Of a stretch of DNA of 64,000 nt, positions 1 through 50,052 are shown piece after piece. The notes beneath the pieces were generated by a model that did no database searches, was not told the DNA's origin, and saw only the letters and a program-made list of their open reading frames with translations. The stretch lies in assembly GCF_000765675.1 (NCBI RefSeq), contig NZ_JRPA02000001.1:62001-126000 (forward strand), given 5' to 3'. A program made the position numbers and the translations under genes. The DNA comes from Helicobacter sp. MIT 05-5294 (GTDB taxonomy: Bacteria > Campylobacterota > Campylobacteria > Campylobacterales > Helicobacteraceae). Each line of letters begins with the position of its first letter. Position 1 is the stretch's first letter.

Positions 1-134
1 TTGAGTGCGAGAAGCATATCAAAATCGCTTTGAGGATTAGAATCTGATTGAAAAGCATTGCTAGAAGTGTAATTTTGGGTTGTAGAAGCTACGAAATTGG
101 AGCTTCGGGACAAGAAATTTTGAGATAAAAACAT
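1..134 (-). CDS. Unknown protein, N-terminal part only (runs off left edge)
   Basis: I do not recognise this gene. An open frame starts at an ATG at 134, a good ribosome-binding site (AAGGAATTCCT) lies directly upstream, and the frame stays open for 44 codons to the window edge. The visible part is rich in Ser, Asn, Gln and Thr and has no signal peptide or membrane segment. It follows mraY and murD on the same strand with a 106-base gap, so it may be co-transcribed or have its own promoter in that gap. The start is fairly safe; the function is open. Confidence 0.6.
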   Translation of the reverse strand, partial: MFLSQNFLSRSSNFVASTTQNYTSSNAFQSDSNPQSDFDMLLAL

Positions 135-240
135 AGGAATTCCTTTAGTTCTAGCTTTTAAGAATAAAGCAAAAAAGATTCCAAAATGCCATTATAGAAT
201 CCTAACCTACAATACTTACTCTTTGGGATTCTCTATTGCA

Positions 241-1548
241 TTAAGAATCACGTAATGCGTAAGCTTTGAATTTCTCGCCCCTTTCTTTGTAAGAGCTAAA
301 TTGGTCTAAACTCGCTGCTGCTGGGGAGAGAAGTGCTATCGTGTTGGTGGAATCTTGAGAGGTTTGGGAGCTTTGCACTTTGGAATCTAAAAGATTCTTG
401 TTTGCAAAAACTTCTTGAATCTTTTTCACAGCAACTTCTAGCGTATAACAAGCATTACAAGGAGTGTTGCTTGTTTTTGCGAGATTGCAGAGTTTATCGG
501 TATTGCTTCCAATGGCAAAAATCTCTATTTTGCATTGCGCAATCAGTTTAAAAAGAGGCGTTAAATCTGCGCCTTTGTCGTCCCCTCCAAGAATCAACAA
601 GATTTGCGAGTTTTGGTAACGCTTAATCGCTTCCATTGTCGCGTCAAGATTTGTTCCTTTGCTATCATCTACCCAAAGATTCCCGCATTTATCATAAAAT
701 TCTTCAATTTTGTGTGCGCCGATTTTAAAAGCGTTTAAGAGTGCGTAATCTTGGGTAGAAAATAGAATCTCACACGCACTCATTGCAAGGGCTGCGTCTA
801 ACAAAAAGGGTTCTTTGAAACGAATAGAATCCAAATCTAGGTGAAAAATCTCCGCTAAGTCTTTGGAATCTTGATAAAAGATGAGATTCGCCCTAGATTG
901 TTGGACAAATTCGTGCGATTCTAAGTTTTTTGGGAGAATCGCAACTTCTTTCTCGCGCAAAGAAAGAATCGGCTTGAGTTTGTCAGAAATATAATTTGCA
1001 TAGCTTTCATGCCAACTAATATGGTCTTGCGTGATAGGCAAAAGCAAATACAAAATAGGCTTGGCGATTTGCGTGTAATGCAGTGTAAAAGAGCTTGTTT
1101 CTAGTATCCAAAGGGGAGATTTTGGGTCAAGTTTCTCTAGAGGAGTGCCGATATTTCCTCCGCTTTGTGCGCCGCGGGATTGCAATAAATGCGTGAGGAT
1201 TTGCGTGGTTGTGGTTTTGCCATTTGTGCCACTAATCCACACAGAGGGCGGCATTTTGGATTGGAATGCGAAAAAATCATATTCACTTAAGAATAGCGTT
1301 TGTTTATGCGTTTCCATAAAGCAATAAACGGCTTGAATCATTGCATTATGAGGCGGAATCCCTGGGCTTGTAACAATCAAGGATTCTGGATTGTTTGCCA
1401 AAACTTCATTAATATGCGCACTTGGAAGCAAGGAGTTACCCAAAGAATCCTTGCTTTCTTGTTCAAAACTATCATCTAATACAATGCAAGGCGCAAATTT
1501 CTCTGCGATTGCGCGATTCGTCCCACCAAATCCTAAAAGTATCAACAT
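241..1548 (-). CDS. murD: UDP-N-acetylmuramoyl-L-alanine--D-glutamate ligase
   Basis: MurD is the cytoplasmic ATP-dependent ligase that adds D-glutamate to UDP-MurNAc-L-Ala in peptidoglycan precursor synthesis. The 435-residue protein has the normal family length. It opens with a Rossmann-like segment (ILLGFGGTN), has the Mur ligase P-loop GTNGKTTTT near residue 107, and carries the C-terminal motif WVDDSKGTN expected of the ligase domain. It lies 9 bases downstream of mraY on the same strand, so the two cell-wall genes form one transcription unit. Nothing unusual was seen. Confidence 0.96.
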   Translation of the reverse strand: MLILLGFGGTNRAIAEKFAPCIVLDDSFEQESKDSLGNSLLPSAHINEVLANNPESLIVTSPGIPPHNAMIQAVYCFMETHKQTLFLSEYDFFAFQSKMPPSVWISGTNGKTTTTQILTHLLQSRGAQSGGNIGTPLEKLDPKSPLWILETSSFTLHYTQIAKPILYLLLPITQDHISWHESYANYISDKLKPILSLREKEVAILPKNLESHEFVQQSRANLIFYQDSKDLAEIFHLDLDSIRFKEPFLLDAALAMSACEILFSTQDYALLNAFKIGAHKIEEFYDKCGNLWVDDSKGTNLDATMEAIKRYQNSQILLILGGDDKGADLTPLFKLIAQCKIEIFAIGSNTDKLCNLAKTSNTPCNACYTLEVAVKKIQEVFANKNLLDSKVQSSQTSQDSTNTIALLSPAAASLDQFSSYKERGEKFKAYALRDS

Positions 1549-1557
1549 AAGAATCCT

Positions 1558-2616
1558 TTATCGTATTTTCAAGCTTAAAAGTGCGATGAGGTTGCTCATT
1601 AGCGCGACAATCCAGAATCGGACGATGATTTTACTCTCGTTTAAGCCTTTTTCTTCAAAATGATGATGCAAAGGAGCCATTAAAAAAATCTTTTTGCCGC
1701 GTGTTTTGTAGCTTCCGATTTGCAAAATAACCGAAAGTGCCTCTACAACGAAAATAAAGCCAATTAAAAAAAGCAAAATTTCGTTTTTGGATACAATCGC
1801 CATATAGGCAATGAATCCGCCCAAACTTAAACTCCCGCTATCTCCCATAAAGACTTGCGCGGGGTGGCAATTATACCAAAGGAATCCAATGAGTGCGCCA
1901 ATGAGTGCGGAGGAGAGAATCACGAGTTCTCCGCTATCTAAGACTTTAGGATACAAGAGGTATGCGCTCAATCCCGAATGTCCTGCGACATAAACAAAAG
2001 CTGTCAAGGAAGTAAGTGCATAGATAGAGGGAATCGCAACTAGTCCATCTAAGCCATCTGTGAGATTAACCGCGTTGCTTGTAGCGACAAAGACAAGCGT
2101 CCAAAATGCGATAGAAACGAAGCTCCAATCAAAAAGCGGATTCTTAAAAAAAGGTAAATAAAATTCTGAATTTAGCCCGATGAAATAAAGTCCAATGGAC
2201 AAAATCAAGCTAATAAGAATCTGCAATAAAAATTTGGTTTTTGCACCCATTCCAGCATTTTTGCGTTGCATTACCTTAGAATAATCATCGCTGATTCCAA
2301 GCATTGCAAAGCCTAGCAGAGTAAGAATCCCAAGCAAAATATAGATGTGATTGAGCTTCGCACAAAGCAAAGTAGCCAACAAAGTTGTGCTAACAAAGAC
2401 GATACCACCCATTGTGGGGGTATTTACCTTTTGTTGATGATTTTTAGGAGCAAACTTAGAGATAGGTTGGTTTGCGTGTTTGTTTCTCGCCCATAAAATA
2501 TAATAAGGCATTATAAAAATGGTCAGAAAAAACGCGACAAAAAACGCGACAGCAGAACGCACGGTGATGTATTGGAACAAATTAATATCCCAAAAAGAAT
2601 AGAGATAATACAACAT
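1558..2616 (-). CDS. mraY: Phospho-N-acetylmuramoyl-pentapeptide transferase
   Basis: MraY is the inner-membrane enzyme that transfers phospho-MurNAc-pentapeptide to undecaprenyl phosphate, making lipid I. The 352-residue protein has about ten hydrophobic segments and the family landmarks: the early loop motif TPTMGG, the [12 protein letters not shown] catalytic Asp cluster, and the late [11 protein letters not shown] histidine motif. Length is typical. It is the first gene of the mraY-murD pair and is divergent from gpmI across an 82-base gap that contains a small dyad. Confidence 0.97.
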
Positions 2617-2651
2617 AAGCCAAACTTACTAAATGAAATTTTAGGAAAAAA

Positions 2652-2671
2652 TTGGGTAGGATTCTACCCAA
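2652..2671. promoter_or_regulatory. Short dyad between divergent mraY and gpmI
   Basis: TTGGGTAG and CTACCCAA form a perfect 8-base inverted repeat around GATT. It sits in the 82-base divergent gap, 28 bases before the gpmI start. It could be an operator or a 5' hairpin. There is no T-run, so a terminator is unlikely. Confidence 0.3.
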
Positions 2672-2698
2672 AATAACTTTAAAAATGGGAAAATCTAA

Positions 2699-4174
2699 AT
2701 GAAAGCTGTTTTGGTCATCACAGATGGAATCGGATATAGTCAAAAGCAAGAATACAACGCGTTTTTTGCCGCAAATAAGCCAACTTATGATAGGCTGTTT
2801 CAAGAAGTGCCTTTTGGAATGATTCATACCTATGGCTTGTCTGTTGGTTTGCCAGAGGGGCAAATGGGAAATTCTGAAGTGGGGCATATGAGCCTAGGAA
2901 GCGGAAGAATCCTCTATCAAGACCTTGTGAAAATCAACAAGGCAATAGAAGAAGGAACTTTGATGTCTAATCCCGCCTTGGATTCTCTTGTGGGAGTCAA
3001 GCGTGTGCATTTGGTTGGGTTGCTAAGTGATGGAGGGGTGCATTCACATATTGACCATATCTTGGCACTTGCTTTAGGATTGGAATCCCAATATGAAGTT
3101 TTATTGCATTTAATTACCGATGGACGCGATGTGCCGCCTAAGAGCGCACCGAAGTTTGTCGCAGAGGTAGAATCGCAAATAAAGGGCAAAAGGATTCGTA
3201 TTGTAAGTCTTAGCGGACGCTATTACGCAATGGATAGGGACAATCGTTGGGAGCGCGTGGAGAGAGCTTATAATGTGATTGCCTTAGGAGAAAATGCCCA
3301 AAGCATTAGCCCACAAGAATATTTACAAAATCAATTTGCCAAAGAAATTTTTGATGAATTTATAGAACCTGCGAGTTTTGGGGATTCTGCAAATAATGGA
3401 ATCCAACGCCAAGACGGCTTGATTTTTGTAAATTTTAGAAGCGATAGAGCAAGAGAAATCGTCCGTGCTTTGGGTGAGGCAGAATTTAGCGGTTTTGCGC
3501 GCAAACAATTTACTAAGATTCCGCTTGTTACGATGACGCCTTATGATAAAACCTTTTCTTTTCCGATTCTTTTCCCAAAAGAAAGTGTGCAAAACACTTT
3601 AGCCGAAGTGATTTCAAGGCATAATCTGCGACAATTTCACACTGCAGAGACTGAAAAATACGCGCATGTAACTTTCTTTTTTAATGGCGGGATTGAAGAG
3701 CCTTATCCTAACGAAACGCGACTTTTGGTGCCTTCACCAAAAGTTGCCACCTATGATTTGCAGCCTCAAATGAGTGCCAAAGAAGTAGGGGACGCGGTTT
3801 TAATGGCAATGGAGGAGGGCTATGATTTTGTCGTGGTGAATTTCGCTAATGGCGATATGGTGGGACATACTGGTAACTTTGAAGCAGCAATCAAAGCAGT
3901 AGAAGCAGTAGATAGTGAGCTTGGAAGGATCTATACAAAGGCAAAAGAAAAGAACTATGGGCTAATCATTACAAGCGATCATGGGAATTGCGAAGAAATG
4001 AAAAACGAGAAAGGCGAACCGCTTACGAACCACACTATCGGTGATGTATGGTGCTTTGTCGCGGCAAATGGGGTAGAAAAAGTGCAAAATGGCGGGTTAA
4101 ACAATATCGCGCCGAGCATTTTAAAACTTATGGGAATTGCGATTCCAGATGAAATGGATAAACCACTTTTTTAG
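2699..4174 (+). CDS. gpmI: 2,3-bisphosphoglycerate-independent phosphoglycerate mutase
   Basis: This cytoplasmic glycolytic/gluconeogenic enzyme interconverts 3- and 2-phosphoglycerate using two metal ions and a phosphoserine. The 491-residue protein is close to family length. Visible landmarks are the N-terminal metal-binding segment ITDGIGYS, the nucleophile Ser59 in [10 protein letters not shown], the substrate-binding stretch DGRDVPP, and the C-terminal metal motifs [12 protein letters not shown] and TSDHGNCE. It starts at ATG 2699 after a GGGAAA ribosome-binding site and is divergent from mraY. The same mraY/gpm neighbourhood is known in Campylobacter. Confidence 0.97.
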
Positions 4175-4216
4175 AGGAATTATTGCGCATTTAAACAAAA
4201 ATATAAAAAATAATCG

Positions 4217-4222
4217 TATAAT
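4217..4222 (+). promoter_or_regulatory. Candidate -10 box of cheZ
   Basis: TATAAT lies 36 bases before the cheZ ATG in a very AT-rich gap, as expected for a Helicobacter vegetative promoter in which the extended -10 dominates. It would give a leader of about 30 bases. Confidence 0.5.
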
Positions 4223-4257
4223 TGTAAGCAATTTTCAACTTATTTCAAGGGTTAAGA

Positions 4258-4977
4258 ATGACACAAGAGGAATTGGATTCACTGCTAGGTAGCGATATGG
4301 ACGATGTTGCGCAAGGACAAGAACAAGAAAACACAGAGGAAAGCGCAAGTGAGGATTTGGGTGAGGATTCCATAGCTCAAGCAGACCCAACTATCAAAAG
4401 TGAAGCAAAAGCACATGATTTTTCTATCGAACAAGATGTAAGTTGGCCCCCACCTCCGCCAACAGCAGAGCATAAAGTGGTGCATCAACTAGATGATGTT
4501 ACGCGGGATTCTGAAATCAAAGCAACAGAAATGTTTGATAAGCTAGAGAAAATCAACAACCTAGACGCAGACATTGAAGATGCTTTTGGAGAGATTCAGC
4601 AGTTTATTGATTCCCAAGAGGAATTACTCCAAAAGCTTCACGCTAAATTTCCGGATTTTCATACTTTCAACGAGCAGTTAGAAGCTGCAGCGAAAGTGAA
4701 ATCCAATGTGCAAAAAGTTTCGGATTCCTTGCAAGAGATTGCAAACATTTCACTAGACGCAATGGAAGCCATGCAATATCAAGACATTCATCGTCAAAAA
4801 ATTGAACGCGTTATCAACATTATGCGCGCCCTTGCAAGATATATGAGTTCTCTCTTTGAAGGCAAGATTGACGATAATAAACGCGTAAGCTCCGCGGTGC
4901 ATATCCAAGGAGACAAAACCGAAAATGTTGTAAATGAAAGCGATATTGAAGCTTTGATTGCGAATTTTGGCAAGTAG
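4258..4977 (+). CDS. cheZ: CheZ-type CheY-phosphate phosphatase
   Basis: The protein matches the remote CheZ of epsilonproteobacteria, which dephosphorylates CheY-P at the chemotaxis arrays and flagellar pole. It has 239 residues: an acidic, disordered N-terminal third with a proline run (about 64-68), long helices, and the catalytic pattern QDIHRQ, in which Asp176 and Gln180 correspond to the CheZ acid and the inserted glutamine. The last residues (DIEALIANFG) resemble the C-terminal CheY-binding tail of enterobacterial CheZ. The first residues MTQEELDSLL look like the FliM N-terminal CheY-binding peptide. It sits 3 bases upstream of a U32 peptidase, the same neighbour as in H. pylori. Confidence 0.85.
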   Translation: MTQEELDSLLGSDMDDVAQGQEQENTEESASEDLGEDSIAQADPTIKSEAKAHDFSIEQDVSWPPPPPTAEHKVVHQLDDVTRDSEIKATEMFDKLEKINNLDADIEDAFGEIQQFIDSQEELLQKLHAKFPDFHTFNEQLEAAAKVKSNVQKVSDSLQEIANISLDAMEAMQYQDIHRQKIERVINIMRALARYMSSLFEGKIDDNKRVSSAVHIQGDKTENVVNESDIEALIANFGK

Positions 4978-4980
4978 TTT

Positions 4981-6267
4981 ATGCAAGAGCATAATCCAAC
5001 CCCCTCCAAGATTCCAGAGCTTCTTTGTCCTGCGGGTAACCTCAAAAAGCTAAAAATCGCCCTAGAATATGGGGCGGACGCGGTTTATGGCGGAGTGAGT
5101 CATTTTTCACTGCGGAATCGCTCGGGCAAGGAATTTGATTTTGAATCCTTTAAAGAGGGCGTGGAAATCACGCACGAGCGCGGTAAAAAGATTTATGTAA
5201 CTATTAATGGATTCCCCTTTAATTCACAATTAAAATTGCTAGAATCGCATATTGAAAAAATGGCAAGTCTAAATCCTGACGCTTTTATTGTCTCAACGCC
5301 GGGAGTGATTAGGCTCTCAAGTCAGATTGCGCCACAGATTCCGATTCATCTCTCCACACAAGCAAATGTATTGAATATCTTGGACGCGCAAGTGTTTTAT
5401 GAGCTTGGAGTGAAGCGCATTATCGCCGCTAGAGAGTTGAGCTTAAAAGATGCGGTGGAGATTAAAAAAGCCTTGCCAGATTTAGAGTTGGAAATCTTTG
5501 TGCATGGTTCTATGTGCTTTGCATTTTCGGGACGATGTTTAATTTCCGCGTTGCAAAATGGACGCGTGCCAAATCGTGGAAGTTGCGCGAATGATTGTCG
5601 GTTTGATTATGAATACTATGTGCGCAATCCCGATAATGGTGTGATGATGCGTTTAGTGGAAGAAGAGGGGATTGGCACACATATTTTTAATGCTAAGGAT
5701 TTGAATCTGATAGAACATTTGCCTTTGATTTTGGAGAGTGGAGCGATAGATTCTTTGAAAATTGAAGGGCGCACGAAATCTAGCTATTATGCGGGTATTA
5801 CTGCATTTGCTTATAAAACCGCTTTGCAAGATTATGCGCGAGGTGAATTTAAAGGCGAGAAATATATGCAGGAGCTAGAAACGCTCAAGAATCGCGGGTT
5901 TAGCGATGGTTATTTGGTGCATCGTCCTTTTGAGAAAAACAACACGCAAAACCACCTAACCGCCATTAGCGAGGGGAGTTATCAAGTCAATGCGGAAGTG
6001 GGCGAAGAGGGCAAAACTGCGCTTTGCAGGCACACGATTCGCCCCGGAGAACCAAAAGAAATCGTGAGTGCGCATTGGGATAGCATTCGGGTTGGGAAAA
6101 ACGAAATTGGCGAGATTTTTGAAGAAAAGGGCAAAAAATACCTGCGACTTTTTAAGATTCTGCTAGAGAATGGCAAGGAGCTAGAATCTATCCATAGCGG
6201 CAATGAAAACGCGTTTGTCTTGCCCTTTGCCTTGCCGCCTTTTAGCTTTTTGCGCCAAAGGATTTAG
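4981..6267 (+). CDS. U32-family peptidase-like protein (TrhP/YegQ type)
   Basis: This is a peptidase U32 family member, annotated as collagenase PrtC in H. pylori. Better-studied relatives (TrhP/YegQ) hydroxylate tRNA wobble uridine, so a role in tRNA modification is the likelier function; that is family knowledge, not something visible here. The 428-residue protein begins with the family stretch ELLCPAGNLKKLK. It carries the signature around residue 177 (VHGSMCFAFSGRCLIS) followed by a second cysteine pair in RGSCANDCR, consistent with an iron-sulphur site. It is translationally close to cheZ (3-base gap). Confidence 0.88.
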   Translation: MQEHNPTPSKIPELLCPAGNLKKLKIALEYGADAVYGGVSHFSLRNRSGKEFDFESFKEGVEITHERGKKIYVTINGFPFNSQLKLLESHIEKMASLNPDAFIVSTPGVIRLSSQIAPQIPIHLSTQANVLNILDAQVFYELGVKRIIAARELSLKDAVEIKKALPDLELEIFVHGSMCFAFSGRCLISALQNGRVPNRGSCANDCRFDYEYYVRNPDNGVMMRLVEEEGIGTHIFNAKDLNLIEHLPLILESGAIDSLKIEGRTKSSYYAGITAFAYKTALQDYARGEFKGEKYMQELETLKNRGFSDGYLVHRPFEKNNTQNHLTAISEGSYQVNAEVGEEGKTALCRHTIRPGEPKEIVSAHWDSIRVGKNEIGEIFEEKGKKYLRLFKILLENGKELESIHSGNENAFVLPFALPPFSFLRQRI

Positions 6268-44083: not shown

Positions 44084-45286
44084 CTACCACCCTAGATTTA
44101 TGCCACCACCTTCTTCAAGCTGATAGTTGGCGTCTTTGCCGATTGTATAGCCATTACCGCTTCCGCCTCCTAGCGGACGACAAATATCTCCTTTTTTCAC
44201 ACTGCCCTCTGTAATTCTTGCATAAGAAAGCTTCGGAGTAGAACGCACGATTTCAATGCTTCCGCTTTTGGTTTCTACTCTGCCTGTTGGTTCTTTGGTG
44301 TAAGGGTCTCTAATCACATCTCCTAGCGCGAAACATTCAAAAGTATCGCCTTGTGCAATGGTTTGTGTGAAAATCACTTCATCATTTTGAATATCTGAAA
44401 TTTTTAGTGGGTAGATTGCGTTTAAAATATCGCTACTAATCCGCGCTGAAATTTGCTCAAATCCTGCATTTGTCGCGCTTAAGCCGCCGTCTTTGAAATT
44501 CACTTTCATACTTAAAGTGTTTTGAAATTTGATTTGCCTTGTTGCAAAAAGCATTACGCGATAATCCACAACCACTTCGGCTTTGATTGTCTCTTTGCCT
44601 GTGAGGTTGCTTTTTTTGGAATCCGCATCAATCCCGCGCATAGAGACTAACAAAATATAATCTGTGGCTAAAACATTTTTAAGCTTATAGACTTCATCAC
44701 TTGCCACATCGCCACTTTGAATGATTGCCTTTTCTGCTTCATAATATCCCTTTGTGTCTCTATCTAAGACATTGAATTTGCGCGAATGGAGCAAATCTTT
44801 AATAACGCTTTGTTGTAGAATCGGGCTGATTTTTCGCACATTGGAATCCGCTGTGGCATCAAAAACAATAATACTGCGCCTAGAATCTGCACTCAGCCCC
44901 GGAGCTTTGTATTTTTTGGTTGTGGTGGTTTTATTGATAACCACTTTCACTTCATATCCATCAGAAGTTTTATTTGACGAGATAACATCATAGGAGCTAA
45001 AAGAGCCTTTTGTAGCCTTTTGGATAGCATCTATATAGCTTTTTTCTAGGCTTTGTTCTTTGCCGCTTTTGACGCTATTAGTTAAAAATGCAGTGTTTTG
45101 TTGCAAGGTCCCGCCATACATACGCGAAATAGCGTCTGCTAGAGCTTTGTTGAGAGCTTCTTCATAGGTCGCCCCATAACCTTGCCCTTGTGCTTTTCTG
45201 GTGGTTGTCGTGGTTTCAACTTTGGCATAAAGCGTTAAGTTGGTGGCAAATAATGCTAATAATATCCCTAAAATTATTTTTTTCAT
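44084..45286 (-). CDS. Exported FlgT/CsgG-like protein
   Basis: The 400-residue protein has a signal peptide (cleavage near TLYA, about residue 21) and no lipobox. Residues 30-115 look like a LPP20/FlgT N-terminal domain (YGATYEEALNKALADAISRM). Residues 130-260 look like a CsgG/LpoB-type fold (RRSIIVFDATADS, FNVLDRDTKGYYEAE). The last 100 residues, with GDVIRDPYTKEPTGRVETKSG and VKKGDICRPLGGG, resemble the FlgT C-terminal domain. FlgT forms part of the flagellar H-ring in Vibrio; whether it does so here is unknown. It is the last gene of the five-gene unit. Confidence 0.75.
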   Translation of the reverse strand: MKKIILGILLALFATNLTLYAKVETTTTTRKAQGQGYGATYEEALNKALADAISRMYGGTLQQNTAFLTNSVKSGKEQSLEKSYIDAIQKATKGSFSSYDVISSNKTSDGYEVKVVINKTTTTKKYKAPGLSADSRRSIIVFDATADSNVRKISPILQQSVIKDLLHSRKFNVLDRDTKGYYEAEKAIIQSGDVASDEVYKLKNVLATDYILLVSMRGIDADSKKSNLTGKETIKAEVVVDYRVMLFATRQIKFQNTLSMKVNFKDGGLSATNAGFEQISARISSDILNAIYPLKISDIQNDEVIFTQTIAQGDTFECFALGDVIRDPYTKEPTGRVETKSGSIEIVRSTPKLSYARITEGSVKKGDICRPLGGGSGNGYTIGKDANYQLEEGGGINLGW

Positions 45287-45295
45287 TCTGACCCC

Positions 45296-46645
45296 TTAAA
45301 AATCATCAACTTCTATATTGCTAGAGCGTTTTACGCTGTTGCCATAGGATTTTTGCGTTTCTTTTGCGCTATAATCTTTACCATAGTTTGGGTCAAACTC
45401 CCTATTTGCCGCTTCAATGCTATCCATAGAATAATACCGAATCGTGCCGACAAGCATATAATCGCCCTTGTCAATACTCCAAATTCGTGCATCTTCTAGC
45501 CCTCTTAAACTCATAGAAGAAGAGCTTGTAAATTCTTGTGAGATTTCTTTAATCATACTTGTGCGATTAGTTTTGTTGTTTTTATATGTGGTCTTTTTGG
45601 CGTCTTTTACGGCATTAATAGACGCGGTGCGCACTTTTTCTGATAGTTTAGAAGTTATGGATTCTACATTGACATTAGAAGAGAGGAAGTTAGAAATGAT
45701 TTTATCCGCCATACTTCTAGCGTGTTCTATGCTAATGCGGCGATTATCGGCATTCATACCTTCTTCTTTCATAAAGCTATCTAAGCCATAAGCAAGGAGT
45801 GCAGGGCGGCAATTTTCATTGTAATAATATTGCAAACCTAGTTTGGAGTTTAGCGCGTTATCATCTAGGGTATCAACTATGGATTCTGCACTTTTGCATT
45901 GTGCGGTGTTGGTTGTTTTTTTGGATTGGTGTCCTTGTCTTAAATCTCTAGCTAATGCCACTGAACGCTCGGTAACATACGCTAATACGCCCAACTCCAC
46001 CTCTCCATCGTTTTTGGTAACGATGAAATTCTCATAAGGCACAAGTCCGCTAATCTCATCAAAGCCACTTTTGATAGCTTTTTCCATCATCGCCTTATTA
46101 AAGAGTGTTTGCTCCACTTCGGCTTCTATTTTCTTCTTCTCCTCCTCATTTTTGCCATTGCTGACAGCTTTATCTATAATCTTGCCTACAAGCGCAAACA
46201 AATCATTCTCTTGGGATTCTGCTTCTTTGATTTTCTCATCAACTTCTTTTCTAAGTTCGGCTTTTAGCAAATCATCGGGAATTTGCTTTTGGTAGAGTTT
46301 GTAGGATTCCTCTACTTGTATTTCACCGGTTTTTCGCAACACCATTTGAGCTTTAATATCTAGCACTGCTTGATTGTAGGCAGAAGCTAAATATTCGTAG
46401 TATTGGACATCATCAGGTCCGACATCTACGCTAACGACTGCTTGATAGACTTTGGCATTAGGTTGTCTTTTGCGCAGTTCTTTTTGTGCTTTGGATATTA
46501 GTTCGTATATATCTGCCTTTTTGGGTTTATCTACATTTTGGTCTATTATGGGTTTGCTTAGGTCTTCTAGTTCTTGTTTTGTGTTTTGTGCAAATAGCAT
46601 TGTGCTAAGCACGATAGAGCCAATGATAGCGGTTAGTTTTTTCAT
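45296..46645 (-). CDS. Exported protein, Cj0092-like, unknown function
   Basis: I place this 449-residue protein with Campylobacter Cj0092-type periplasmic proteins by position and general look; the function is unknown. It has a signal peptide (cleavage near TMLFA, about residue 19), a helical N-terminal half with coiled-coil segments (about 105-185, Glu/Lys-rich), and a mixed C-terminal half including a Ser/Thr-rich stretch before MSLRGLEDARIWSI. A hairpin with T-run lies right upstream of its ribosome-binding site (AAAGGA). The next gene starts after 9 bases. Confidence 0.72.
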   Translation of the reverse strand: MKKLTAIIGSIVLSTMLFAQNTKQELEDLSKPIIDQNVDKPKKADIYELISKAQKELRKRQPNAKVYQAVVSVDVGPDDVQYYEYLASAYNQAVLDIKAQMVLRKTGEIQVEESYKLYQKQIPDDLLKAELRKEVDEKIKEAESQENDLFALVGKIIDKAVSNGKNEEEKKKIEAEVEQTLFNKAMMEKAIKSGFDEISGLVPYENFIVTKNDGEVELGVLAYVTERSVALARDLRQGHQSKKTTNTAQCKSAESIVDTLDDNALNSKLGLQYYYNENCRPALLAYGLDSFMKEEGMNADNRRISIEHARSMADKIISNFLSSNVNVESITSKLSEKVRTASINAVKDAKKTTYKNNKTNRTSMIKEISQEFTSSSSMSLRGLEDARIWSIDKGDYMLVGTIRYYSMDSIEAANREFDPNYGKDYSAKETQKSYGNSVKRSSNIEVDDF

Positions 46646-46660
46646 TTTTTTCCTTTAAAA

Positions 46661-46685
46661 CAAAAAAGGCGCAAAGTCTGCGCCT
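46661..46685 (-). terminator. Hairpin with T-run just before the ribosome-binding site
   Basis: On the minus strand AGGCGCA-GACTT-TGCGCCT is a perfect 7-base stem followed at once by six T, 15-25 bases before the ATG at 46645. It would stop most transcripts coming from the lpoB-like gene, so it can act as an attenuator or lower expression of the last two genes. Confidence 0.65.
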
Positions 46686-46690
46686 AAATG

Positions 46691-46767
46691 GAATCTTAAC
46701 GAATCCCTATTTAAGGATTCTAGGCGCGGAATCTCAAATCACGCTAGAGATTCCAAACCATAGAATC
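46691..46767. repeat. Cluster of six GAATC/GATTC pentamers
   Basis: Six GAWTC sites in both orientations lie within 77 noncoding bases between the lpoB-like gene and the next gene: at 46691, 46701, 46716, 46729, 46749 and 46763. Several pairs form short dyads such as GAATCC/GGATTC. It is the densest cluster noticed in the window. Confidence 0.6.
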
Positions 46768-46783
46768 CCAAACAACTCTAAGC

Positions 46784-47404
46784 TTACCAACTAACGGATT
46801 TGCTAGAGCCGGTTTTGTCAATCGTTTCTTCCTCTTCCCAATATACTAGCCCTGAAGTAAGGTCTGTGAGACGAAGCAAGAAGAAGTATTCCACTTGTGT
46901 TTTGCCATTTTTAAGTTTGACATTGTCTTGACGAATCTTCCCTGCGAGTGAAAAGTCAGGTGAAACCAAAGTGCCTTTTTTAGCGATTGTTTTTTGGTTA
47001 AACTCATCATTATCTCTAAGTTCCCTCACATCTTCACTCATAGAATCCAACGCACCACCCGCAGCTACCGCGCTAGTTAGCACGAATTTACCGGATTTTC
47101 TTAGCGCACTTGTGATTTTGGCAGTTAGCTTTTCGGTATCAAGGCGCAATGCAGTATCATTTACGACATTTCCGATTGCAATGACTTTTCGTGTGCCGGG
47201 CTTAATATTTACAAACGCTGGGTCGCTAAGCAAACTTTGAATCATTTTTTCTGCTGTGTTTTCAAAATCTTCTCTATCAAGCCCCATAGTGAGTGCGTCG
47301 CCCTTTTTGACTTGTCCTGCTTGTCCGTCTGTATAAACGCTTGGCGCGCACCCTGCTAGTAACAATCCTGCCAATGCGATACTCGCAAAACTTTTTATTT
47401 TCAT
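46784..47404 (-). CDS. LpoB-like outer-membrane lipoprotein
   Basis: A 206-residue lipoprotein: signal with lipobox LLAGC (Cys19), followed by the LpoB-type domain with FVNIKPGTRKVIAIGNVVND, LRKSGKFVLTS and DFSLAGKIRQDN. LpoB in E. coli activates the PBP1b peptidoglycan synthase. Helicobacter is not known to have PBP1b, so the partner is unclear. A counterpart in C. jejuni (Cj0091) has been linked to host-cell adherence, from memory. The neighbour is YcfL-like, the same pairing as E. coli ycfL-lpoB. Confidence 0.8.
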   Translation of the reverse strand: MKIKSFASIALAGLLLAGCAPSVYTDGQAGQVKKGDALTMGLDREDFENTAEKMIQSLLSDPAFVNIKPGTRKVIAIGNVVNDTALRLDTEKLTAKITSALRKSGKFVLTSAVAAGGALDSMSEDVRELRDNDEFNQKTIAKKGTLVSPDFSLAGKIRQDNVKLKNGKTQVEYFFLLRLTDLTSGLVYWEEEETIDKTGSSKSVSW

Positions 47405-47414
47405 TTTTTCTCCT

Positions 47415-47792
47415 TTAATTTGGTTGAATTTCTATGGCAAAGTCTTTTGCCCTTTTGTCTATTGCTATTTTTTTGAGCGTGATTTCGCGATTCTTGATGA
47501 GCCTAAGTGTTTTGTATTCTTTGTTGATAGGGTCTTGCAAGACGAATCCATCGGAATCTAGCCAATCAATCTTGTAAATCACATCTCTATTGCTTGTGCT
47601 ATTTAAAATAACTTCAATCTCTAGTAAGCCATTGTCATTAACGCGTTTGTTGTAGCTTTGGACTAACTCTTTGGATAATCCAATCAGCGTGAAACCTATA
47701 TCGTCTCTGCTTTTTTCTGCGATATGCGTGGTTTGCCTAGCGCAACCGCTAAACAAAAGCGCAATGACGCCTAAAACAAATAAGAATCTCAT
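47415..47792 (-). CDS. YcfL-like lipoprotein (DUF1425)
   Basis: A 125-residue lipoprotein with lipobox LFSGC (Cys17) and a beta-sandwich-like domain containing LLEIEVILNSTSNRDVIYKI and DWLDSDGFVLQDP, matching YcfL-type proteins found next to LpoB in E. coli. The function is unknown in either group. It lies 9 bases behind the large lipoprotein gene and 10 bases before the lpoB-like gene, so the three are translated from one message. Confidence 0.78.
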   Translation of the reverse strand: MRFLFVLGVIALLFSGCARQTTHIAEKSRDDIGFTLIGLSKELVQSYNKRVNDNGLLEIEVILNSTSNRDVIYKIDWLDSDGFVLQDPINKEYKTLRLIKNREITLKKIAIDKRAKDFAIEIQPN

Positions 47793-47801
47793 ACTATCCC
47801 T

Positions 47802-49172
47802 TTAGTTTTCTATGATTTCTATATGAGTAGGCAACAAGGGCGAGAATGAGCGGACAAATACAAGGACATTTTTGTTTTTATCTAAGTCTGCTTTGTGGAT
47901 TTCTGCGCCCTCTGGATTCTTAATAGAGATTGCGCCTTTGTTTTCTATCATCGCGACAGAGACGCTTTTGGGTAATCCACGCCAAGAGCGCACATCGGCT
48001 TGTGTGGTTAATGCGGTGAGTGTAGAAGTGCCAAGACTTAAGAATCCACCGGTTTTGTCGTTATTGGCTACTGCGGCATTTAGGGTTGTTTTTAATGCAG
48101 TTTGCACGAGTGCTTTTGTAATCATACTTGGCATATTGATTTTAAACTCTGTGGCAATAATATTATCCAAATCCACGACTTGTGCAGTTTTAGTGCCGTT
48201 TGCTTCAAGGTAAGGATAAGAGGCATCGCGTCTTTTAAGGGTTTGTAGTGCGATACTTGTCGCAACAACATTGCTTCCCTCAACAAGCCAGACAGGAAGA
48301 GTTAGCGAAAACTCCTCTTTGACTGCGCCAAAACCATTTTCATAGACGACAAAAATATATTTGCCTTTCGCCTTTGTGCTTTTGGCGAAATTATTGAAGA
48401 TTTTGGATTCTTTTTGAATCTCTTTGTCTTTAGGGTTGATGATAGCAACTTCGCGGAATAAGTCTCGTGCGCGTTTGTAGTCTTGGTCCATAAAGAAAAA
48501 TACAGAAGCAAGATAAGTTGCATAAGGATTCGTAAATCTCTTAGCGGTATCAAATTCTGCAAACAAATGCGAATATTCCGCTTCTATAACTTTCTTGCCC
48601 TCTTTGAAGTTTTTGTCAAAGTTTTCGTCTTTTTTCGCCTCTTTGCTTTGTTCTTCTAGTTCTTTTTTATCGCGTTCAATTTGTTTAGCGAAATAATCCT
48701 TAGCTTTCTCTTGTCTCAAAAGTGCGCGGTTAAACTCCACTCTTGCATCTTTAAAATTACCTAAATTCATAAAGTTTAGTGCTTTATAACTATTTACCAT
48801 AATGCGCTCATACAAAGAGCCTTCATAATCTACAATTGTATCGTTGATTAAGGTTGTCGCTACGAGTTTTGCTCCCTTTTTACCGACATTTTCCAAATCT
48901 ACATCGTATTTATAGGATTCCTCTGCCGCGTCAAATAGCGTATTGCTTGTTTCAAATTTGCCACAATTTTTAGCTAATAATCCCGTGTTTAGTCCAGTGT
49001 AAATTACATCGTTATTGTTTTTGATTTTGTTTAGATTGTCCTCAAAGAATTTTTCGCCACAATGTTTTTCTATCAACGCCTTTTCATATGTTTGATTAAC
49101 TTGCGCATGGTTTGCACAACCGCTCAAGATTAAAAAACTACTACAAATCGCCAAATAAGCACTTAGGTGCAT
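47802..49172 (-). CDS. COG3014-like lipoprotein with helical repeats
   Basis: A 456-residue lipoprotein: signal ending in lipobox ILSGC (Cys18 from the chosen start), then helical TPR-like repeats (about 60-220, including NFKDARVEFNRALLRQEKAKD and a charged coiled segment around 165-190) and a beta-rich C-terminal half. The pattern fits COG3014 lipoproteins, which in other bacteria also precede YcfL and LpoB. The ATG at 49172 is preferred to a TTG at 49190 because AGGAAAG precedes it and it places the signal at the start. It is first in the operon behind the G14 promoter. Confidence 0.75.
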   Translation of the reverse strand: MHLSAYLAICSSFLILSGCANHAQVNQTYEKALIEKHCGEKFFEDNLNKIKNNNDVIYTGLNTGLLAKNCGKFETSNTLFDAAEESYKYDVDLENVGKKGAKLVATTLINDTIVDYEGSLYERIMVNSYKALNFMNLGNFKDARVEFNRALLRQEKAKDYFAKQIERDKKELEEQSKEAKKDENFDKNFKEGKKVIEAEYSHLFAEFDTAKRFTNPYATYLASVFFFMDQDYKRARDLFREVAIINPKDKEIQKESKIFNNFAKSTKAKGKYIFVVYENGFGAVKEEFSLTLPVWLVEGSNVVATSIALQTLKRRDASYPYLEANGTKTAQVVDLDNIIATEFKINMPSMITKALVQTALKTTLNAAVANNDKTGGFLSLGTSTLTALTTQADVRSWRGLPKSVSVAMIENKGAISIKNPEGAEIHKADLDKNKNVLVFVRSFSPLLPTHIEIIEN

Positions 49173-49225
49173 TGCTTTAACTTTCCTCAATACCTACTCC
49201 TAATCTTAAAATAATTAAAGCTAAA

Positions 49226-49256
49226 ATAATACCCCCCCCCCCCCCTTAAAAGTCAA
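49226..49256 (-). promoter_or_regulatory. Promoter with G14 spacer (phase-variable)
   Basis: On the minus strand TTGACT (49256-49251) is followed by TTTAA, then fourteen G, then TATTAT (49231-49226). These are good -35 and -10 boxes with a spacer of 19 bases. A change to 12 G would give the ideal 17. Transcription would start near 49219 with a leader of about 47 bases. Slippage in the tract should change promoter strength of the lipoprotein operon. Confidence 0.75.
49232..49245. repeat. C14/G14 homopolymer tract
   Basis: Fourteen C on the plus strand, i.e. G14 on the strand of the downstream operon. It is one of only two such long tracts in the window. Confidence 0.9.
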
Positions 49257-49358
49257 TTAATTTATAAATTTTGAAATTTAAACCAAAAATAAATACTAAT
49301 AAATTCCATTGATTGCTTTTTTAAAATTCCATTATGGAATCCTCTTTAGGTTTGAAGT

Positions 49359-49405
49359 TATGGATTGCCACAGCCCTTTACAAGGGCTTCGCAATGACGG
49401 CGTGT
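49359..49405. repeat. Dispersed palindromic repeat, copy 7
   Basis: ATGGATTGCCAC, hairpin AGCCCTT-TACA-AGGGCTT, CGCAATGACG. It is almost identical to copy 6, about 5.4 kb away on the other side of the lipoprotein operon. Confidence 0.75.
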
Positions 49406-49424
49406 AAATCTTCAATGGTTTTTT

Positions 49425-49525
49425 GTAATGACGCAGTGGCTGACATTATTGATTTGCATAGTGCGGGTGAAATTTATTTCACAAATTGCACGCCACGAGA
49501 TTCTAGCGAATCTCTCGTAACGACT
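49425..49525. repeat. Dispersed palindromic repeat, copy 8
   Basis: A right-arm fragment GTAATGACGCAGTGG (49425-49439) is followed by a unit with TTGCACGCCAC, hairpin GAGATTC-TAGC-GAATCTC and TCGTAACGAC (to 49525). The core equals that of copy 5 in the opposite orientation. Confidence 0.6.
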
Positions 49526-49678
49526 AATGGATATTCTTATTGTTATTGTGAGAAATGAGCGTAGCGTTCGCGACAATCCACAATCTTATATAGAGTAGGT
49601 TTTACTACGGAATCTTTAAAGGTTTTTAGTAGGCTTTATTTAGGGATTCCATTGCATTATTCTTTGGTTGCTTAAAGC

Positions 49679-49730
49679 ATAGATTGCCACGAAGTTGCAT
49701 TGAGCAACTTCTCGCAATGACAAGGTAGTG
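49679..49730. repeat. Dispersed palindromic repeat, copy 9
   Basis: ATAGATTGCCAC, hairpin GAAGTTGC-ATTGA-GCAACTTC, then CGCAATGACAAGGTAGTG. The arms match copies 4 and 6; the hairpin core is unrelated in sequence but similar in size. Confidence 0.75.
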
Positions 49731-49767
49731 TATTTTCTTTATGATATTAAGGACGACTTGCTAACTC

Positions 49768-49806
49768 ACGATTCTATTACCGCAGAATCTCGCAATGACA
49801 GCGGGT
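49768..49806. repeat. Dispersed palindromic repeat, copy 10
   Basis: The left arm is decayed (TCACGATTCT), the hairpin GATTCT/AGAATC equals that of copy 4, and the right arm CGCAATGACAGCGGGTAG is intact. Confidence 0.6.
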
Positions 49807-50052
49807 AGAGCCTTTACGACTTCTTGCAATAGCGACTAATTTTGTCTCAAGGAAAACAAGAGTGATGTAAGGATAAGGGAATGGTAGTCAATGTGCAATA
49901 GCGCGATAAATTATGCGCACAAACTCATACATACGCATAAATTGCGGGTTTATTGTCGGAATTGGAACTATCACAAAGGCATTATATAGAAGCGCAACAT
50001 ATTCTTAGAGAAACAAAGCAGAACCCCAAAAGGTGAGATTCTTGCTTTGGAA

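Follow-up and report, generated by a model that had tools for sequence, protein, structure and literature searches.

The 14-G tract lying between the -35-like and -10 elements upstream of a lipoprotein operon in Helicobacter sp. MIT 05-5294 is best explained, with a probability of about 0.72, as the slippery spacer of a phase-variable or graded promoter, a reading drawn from comparison of sequences. This kind of switch is already known, and what is new is that one slippery promoter is common to unrelated surface genes. Hereafter, the window denotes the whole stretch of 64,000 nucleotides analysed, and G000 denotes its genome (2.0 Mb, 100 contigs), which was surveyed for tracts by pattern searches and fetched stretches and in which the lipoprotein-operon copy of the promoter is locus G000:C38.

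The promoter and genes of the lipoprotein operon

The elements of the promoter and the genes behind it, all on the minus strand of the window, are as follows.

49251-49256, minus strand: -35-like element TTGACT, inside the conserved TTGACTTTTAA (exact TTGACTTTTAA-Gn-TATTAT in G000 three times, and in G006, G010 and G014)
49246-49250, minus strand: TTTAA between TTGACT and the G14 tract, read from the sequence
49232-49245, minus strand: G14 homopolymer (C14 on the plus strand) forming the promoter spacer, read from the sequence
49226-49231, minus strand: -10 element TATTAT directly adjoining the tract, with an identical G(n)TATTAT abutment in five further copies
49197-49201, minus strand: Shine-Dalgarno AGGAG, common to the homologous promoters (sequence and alignments)
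49183-49278, minus strand: segment homologous to the autotransporter promoters G000:C85 and G000:C100, covering promoter, 5' leader, ribosome site and start codon (BLASTN, masked alignment, leader shuffles)
47802-49190, minus strand: gene 1, 462-aa TPR-type lipoprotein with a TTG start at 49190 (domain search, comparison of the N-terminus with relatives)
47415-47792, minus strand: gene 2, DUF1425 (YcfL-like) lipoprotein, 125 aa (PF07233, E 1.4e-13)
46784-47404, minus strand: gene 3, LpoB-family lipoprotein, 206 aa (PF13036, E 1.6e-42)
46667-46685, minus strand: terminator-like hairpin AGGCGCAGACTTTGCGCCT followed by TTTTTG in the gap between genes 3 and 4 (fold z -4.4 for the surrounding gap)
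45296-46645, minus strand: gene 4, DUF6844 exported protein, 449 aa (PF20891, E 1.2e-7), co-transcription uncertain
44084-45286, minus strand: gene 5, 400-aa exported protein with weak CsgG similarity (PF03783, E 0.002, below the cut-off), co-transcription uncertain

Re-reading of the minus strand, which runs TTAATTGACTTTTAA-G14-TATTATTTTAGCTTTAATTATTTTAAGATTAGGAGTAGGTATTG at this locus, reproduced exactly the letters and positions of TTGACT, G14 and TATTAT given in the preliminary description, together with its spacer of 19 bp (5+14). The homopolymer is placed between recognisable -35 and -10 elements, an arrangement of the porA type that recurs in the family, and the start codon lies 41 nt past the tract end. 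When up to two mismatches were allowed, TTGACTTTTAAGGGGGGGG was found once in the window and in none of 100 dinucleotide shuffles; the promoter element at the lipoprotein locus is not due to chance. The tract itself is one of a large class of slippage-type sequences, the genome holding 80 G/C runs of at least 8. The standard promoter scan did not pick up the lipoprotein promoter because its spacer is longer than 18 bp. The intergenic DNA upstream of the promoter (window 49303-49830) carries imperfect direct repeats of the TCGCAATGACGGCG type.

The gaps between genes 1 and 2, 2 and 3, and 4 and 5 are about 10 nt each, and that between genes 3 and 4 is 138 nt (46646-46783), folds strongly and contains the terminator-like hairpin, AGGCGCAGACTTTGCGCCTTTTTTG, shortly before the ribosome site of gene 4. 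Since the corresponding gap in two relatives has only about 12 nt, the 138-nt segment looks like an insertion. The terminator-like hairpin within it makes it likely that genes 1-3 share a single transcript, and transcription of genes 4 and 5 may depend solely on read-through or on a different promoter. The earlier expectation that five exported proteins are expressed from one tract is therefore doubtful and not supported.

The gene order, the kinds of protein encoded and the hairpin after gene 3 resemble those of the three-gene operon cj0089-cj0090-cj0091 of Campylobacter jejuni, which also has a hairpin after cj0091 and whose product Cj0091 has a part in adherence to INT 407 cells and in the early colonisation of chicks (PMC3100323). 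The C. jejuni operon differs in being driven by an ordinary predicted RpoD-type promoter activated by CmeR, with no G tract reported (PMC3100323). Gene 1 is 56% identical to a protein of Campylobacter bilis. The proteins of relatives align to it from about MHLSAYL, which suggests that the ancestral ATG was probably at 49172 and that the upstream extension was acquired with the promoter.

Of 19 genomes searched in the genus, six contain gene 1, one of them being G000; the genus takes in H. burdigaliensis (G002) and, by the list of tracts, H. canadensis (G003). A scan of genome contigs gave matches in H. burdigaliensis and Campylobacter only. In the five other orthologues of the genus (L010-L014), the fetched stretches, including 1.5 kb upstream, held no G/C run of at least 7, and no tract was present in the upstream 400 bases of these loci or of three Campylobacter loci. 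A conserved switch of the operon was accordingly rejected (0 of 5 genus orthologues with such a run near the gene). Because the tract is absent from the related operons, it is a feature of the promoter of this lineage and not of the operon, and switching, judged from these loci, is not ancestral to the operon.

Homologous promoters of autotransporter genes

The exact TTGACTTTTAA-G13/14-TATTAT arrangement was found at three loci in G000 and at one locus in each of three other species of the genus, with the following tracts.

G000:C38, lipoprotein operon: G14
G000:C85, autotransporter: G14
G000:C100, autotransporter: G13
G006 copy, autotransporter: G14
G010 copy, autotransporter: G13
G014 copy, autotransporter: G14

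The spacing is 18 or 19 bp in all six copies. The genes downstream of the five other copies all encode the PF03797 autotransporter domain, and a PF03797 search of G000 returned two genes, both of which carry this promoter. BLASTN of 49150-49300 against its own genome revealed 84% identity to C100 over 49278-49196 (E 3.9e-18; E 4.7e-6 with the tract masked) and 84% identity to C85 over 49262-49183 (E 3.1e-16), so that the homologous stretch of about 95 bp (49183-49278) runs through the ribosome site up to the start codon. The C85 alignment takes in the ribosome site and TAT-TGAGGAA versus AATATGAGGAA, and thus sets the TTG of gene 1 opposite the ATG of the autotransporter. When the 45 bases after the tract were compared with those of the five autotransporter copies, z scores of 4.5-6.7 were obtained and none of 1000 dinucleotide shuffles equalled the observed score; against the other compared tract promoters of the genus, the same leader gave z 0.5-2.5, except for that of a DUF2971 gene (C40), with z 3.7. 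Among the three G000 copies, AATTAATTGACTTTTAA is more complete than in the copies of other species.

Poly-G promoters before autotransporter-type genes are also found elsewhere in the genus. H. canadensis (G003) has four tracts (G14, G14, G16 and G13) before genes with the leader M-K-(I/L)-S-x-(I/A)-A-S-R, and these match in length and order the promoter candidates of HCAN_0075, 0234, 0457 and 0714 (PMC2823697), for which tract lengths of 11-17, 12-16, 12-20 and 10-14, respectively, were read; the reads were obtained by 454 sequencing, which by the authors' own remark is weak on homopolymers (PMC2823697). In G001, G008 and G009, a tract lies 46-54 nt ahead of the start of an autotransporter gene, and no tract occurs at that position before the autotransporter genes of G002, G017 and G018 or before the second such gene of G006. 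The poly-G promoter is therefore common, though not universal, in this autotransporter family.

The promoter of the lipoprotein operon shares with those of H. canadensis the same genus-level group, a poly-G run abutting or nearly abutting the -10, which in H. canadensis is that of genes with the autotransporter-type leader, and the distance to the start, which is 41 nt at the lipoprotein locus and 38-43 nt in the homologues, within the span of about 35-45 nt taken as typical of autotransporter poly-G promoters of the H. canadensis group. It differs in its boxes: in the four H. canadensis promoters the tract is preceded by TTTAAG-type boxes and followed by CATAAT or CAAAAT, with no TTGAC, in place of TTGACTTTTAA and TATTAT, and the homology outside the tract is to the TTGACTTTTAA type (G000 and the three other species), with none to the H. 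canadensis type. It also differs in its target, gene 1 being a TPR-type lipoprotein and not an autotransporter, and none of the H. canadensis promoters drives a lipoprotein operon.

Several further G tracts came to light in these surveys. Small lipoprotein-like genes of two other species (L116, G001:C21; L125, G011:C39) are preceded by G11 or G13 abutting TATTAT or TATAAT. Several G000 genes (tracts L034, L035, L037, L042 and L086) contain G11-12 within a reading frame, followed by a nearly identical CGAATATTTGCTTATTTGCGATTCTTCCAAGAAGTGCGTGAGTTA, a pattern perhaps akin to the C-terminal phase variation that has been proposed in H. canadensis. A scan of viral contigs with the promoter gave no match. 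Spread of the promoter to another genus was considered on the basis of exact TTGACTTTTAAGGGGGG matches in G049-G052 and rejected, since these were mostly G7 runs with a repeated AGTGGTA-type sequence and no gene start. Among these genomes, boxes resembling TTGACT(T/C)TTAA are confined to G050 and G051, where they come with G13 and with TAATAT or TAACAT ahead of a VWA-like gene:

L172 (G050:C6), other genus, VWA-like gene: preceded by a TTGACTTTTAA-like box, a G13 tract and TAATAT or TAACAT
L178 (G051:C6), other genus, VWA-like gene: preceded by a TTGACTTTTAA-like box, a G13 tract and TAATAT or TAACAT

Spacer length and the proposed mode of switching

A search of 121 Helicobacteraceae genomes for TTGAC, 1-31 nt, at least 8 G and TATWAT yielded 18 matches in 12 genomes, and the reversed pattern yielded none in the same set. 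The spacers were 13, 15, 17, 18 (four), 19 (eight), 20, 22 and 34 bp; 17 of the 18 thus fell within 13-22 bp, though far longer distances were allowed, with a mode of 19 followed by 18. The distances between the -35 and -10 elements cluster at 17-20 bp, in a set of which six of the 18 matches are copies of one promoter and in which the cluster was judged post hoc. The predominance of 19 and 18 bp suggests that the -35 may be genuine and its distance constrained. Permutation of tract length against the rest of the spacer gave no anticorrelation for all 18 matches (P 0.52), and a P of 0.018 was obtained only for 11 loci, with copies collapsed and two outliers dropped. The preliminary description had taken 17 bp as the ideal spacing that slippage by two bases would give. 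A single match of the 18 has this length, the six copies of the promoter are at 18 or 19 bp and these two values are the commonest in the family, so that an ON state at 17 bp, by analogy with E. coli, is doubtful. In G090, of another genus, four TTGACA-Gn-TATAAT promoters (L190, L198, L201 and L202) with spacers of 19-22 bp stand before unrelated genes.

In the proposed mechanism, G14 would serve as the spacer of the main promoter for the operon of TPR-type, YcfL-like and LpoB-like lipoproteins, with transcription predicted to start near 49219. Slipped-strand mispairing at the tract would add or remove Gs in this species, which would change together the distance and the helical phase between TTGACTTTTAA and the -10 box. 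Expression would consequently vary in a stochastic, reversible and probably graded manner with tract length.

The promoters of porA and opc in Neisseria meningitidis have a homopolymer as the spacer between a -35-like element and the -10 and drive genes for surface proteins, and the present promoter is like them in both respects. It is unlike them in that spacers of 18-19 bp are common, in that its host clade normally has no -35 and in that the promoter is common to unrelated gene families. The comparison with porA made at the outset holds insofar as poly-G occupies a sigma-70-type spacer, recurs in the family and is homologous to autotransporter promoters, and as variation in the H. canadensis reads has been published; it does not follow automatically, since the mapped promoters of the best-studied relatives lack a -35 and the H. 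canadensis tract promoters lack TTGAC.

This last point bears on an account in which the tract would act as a rheostat with no -35 involved. The sigma-80 holoenzyme would use the -10, the tract would provide the upstream G and TTGACT would be incidental, while tract length would shift the axial alignment of AT-rich or UP-like DNA relative to the -10, as in H. pylori sabA. The mapped promoters of C. jejuni consist of a -10 gnTAnaAT and a periodic AT-rich upstream signal with no -35, and those of H. pylori are similar (PMC3656092, PMC3847290); the four H. canadensis tract promoters and that of G000:C40 have TTTAAG-type boxes and not TTGAC, so that the -35 reading is not general; and sabA does operate in this way with a T tract, the length of which grades promoter output (PMC4081817). 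The likeness to sabA lies in a promoter homopolymer whose length grades output and in a limited set of transcription factors (PMC4081817), and the difference in the position of the tract, which in sabA adjoins the -35 on its upstream side and acts via UP-like elements and here lies inside the spacer. A poly-G spacer would remove the AT-rich signal, and such promoters may then lean on a true -35 or on a distance-sensitive upstream element. The occurrence of TTGAC before G-run/TATWAT in 12 genomes out of 121, with few exceptions at a promoter-like distance and never in the reversed pattern, and the retention of TTGACTTTTAA in all six copies of the promoter argue against an incidental TTGACT, and we consider this account unlikely. 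Still less probable is a neutral homopolymer, the promoter being constitutive or located elsewhere (e.g., TAAGAT at 49203-49208) and tract length irrelevant. Although G runs are abundant in the genome and the same operon is driven without a tract in relatives, six homologous promoters from four species all have 13-14 Gs in this position, and the tract is found genus-wide in many autotransporter promoters.

Origin and significance of the promoter

The homology to autotransporter promoters, taken together with the lack of a G tract in the related operons that were compared, makes it probable that the lipoprotein operon captured an autotransporter promoter, presumably by ectopic recombination within the genome. 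The same motif could instead have arisen a second time, shaped by a sigma factor or regulator common to both kinds of gene, which would concern the origin of the promoter and not its working. Outside the tract, the homology covers about 80 bp of AT-rich DNA with a promoter and a ribosome site; function limits such a sequence, and part of this short homology could reflect a common role as promoter. The identity nevertheless reaches the spacing, the leader and the TGAGGAA around the C85 start codon, and lower scores were obtained for other tract promoters that serve the same functions, so convergence seems a rather improbable origin. Going beyond the single capture, we tentatively suggest, at a little below even odds, that autotransporter genes were the source of a portable phase-variable promoter, about 95 bp long and consisting of an upstream box, the poly-G spacer, the -10, the leader, the ribosome site and the start codon, which ectopic recombination copied into the lipoprotein operon and, less exactly, in front of the DUF2971 gene at G000:C40. 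Unrelated surface genes would thereby have come to share one type of switch, in a clade where promoters can otherwise do without a -35.

If this is true, phase variation can reach new genes by the copying of a ready-made slippery promoter, with no need for a tract to evolve at each gene. The copies would also constitute a natural set of promoters whose chief differences are in the length of the tract and in the upstream box, and would allow testing of whether the Helicobacter sigma-80 polymerase uses a -35 when Gs replace the AT-rich spacer. The operon affected has a counterpart in C. jejuni that is tied to adherence and chick colonisation (PMC3100323).
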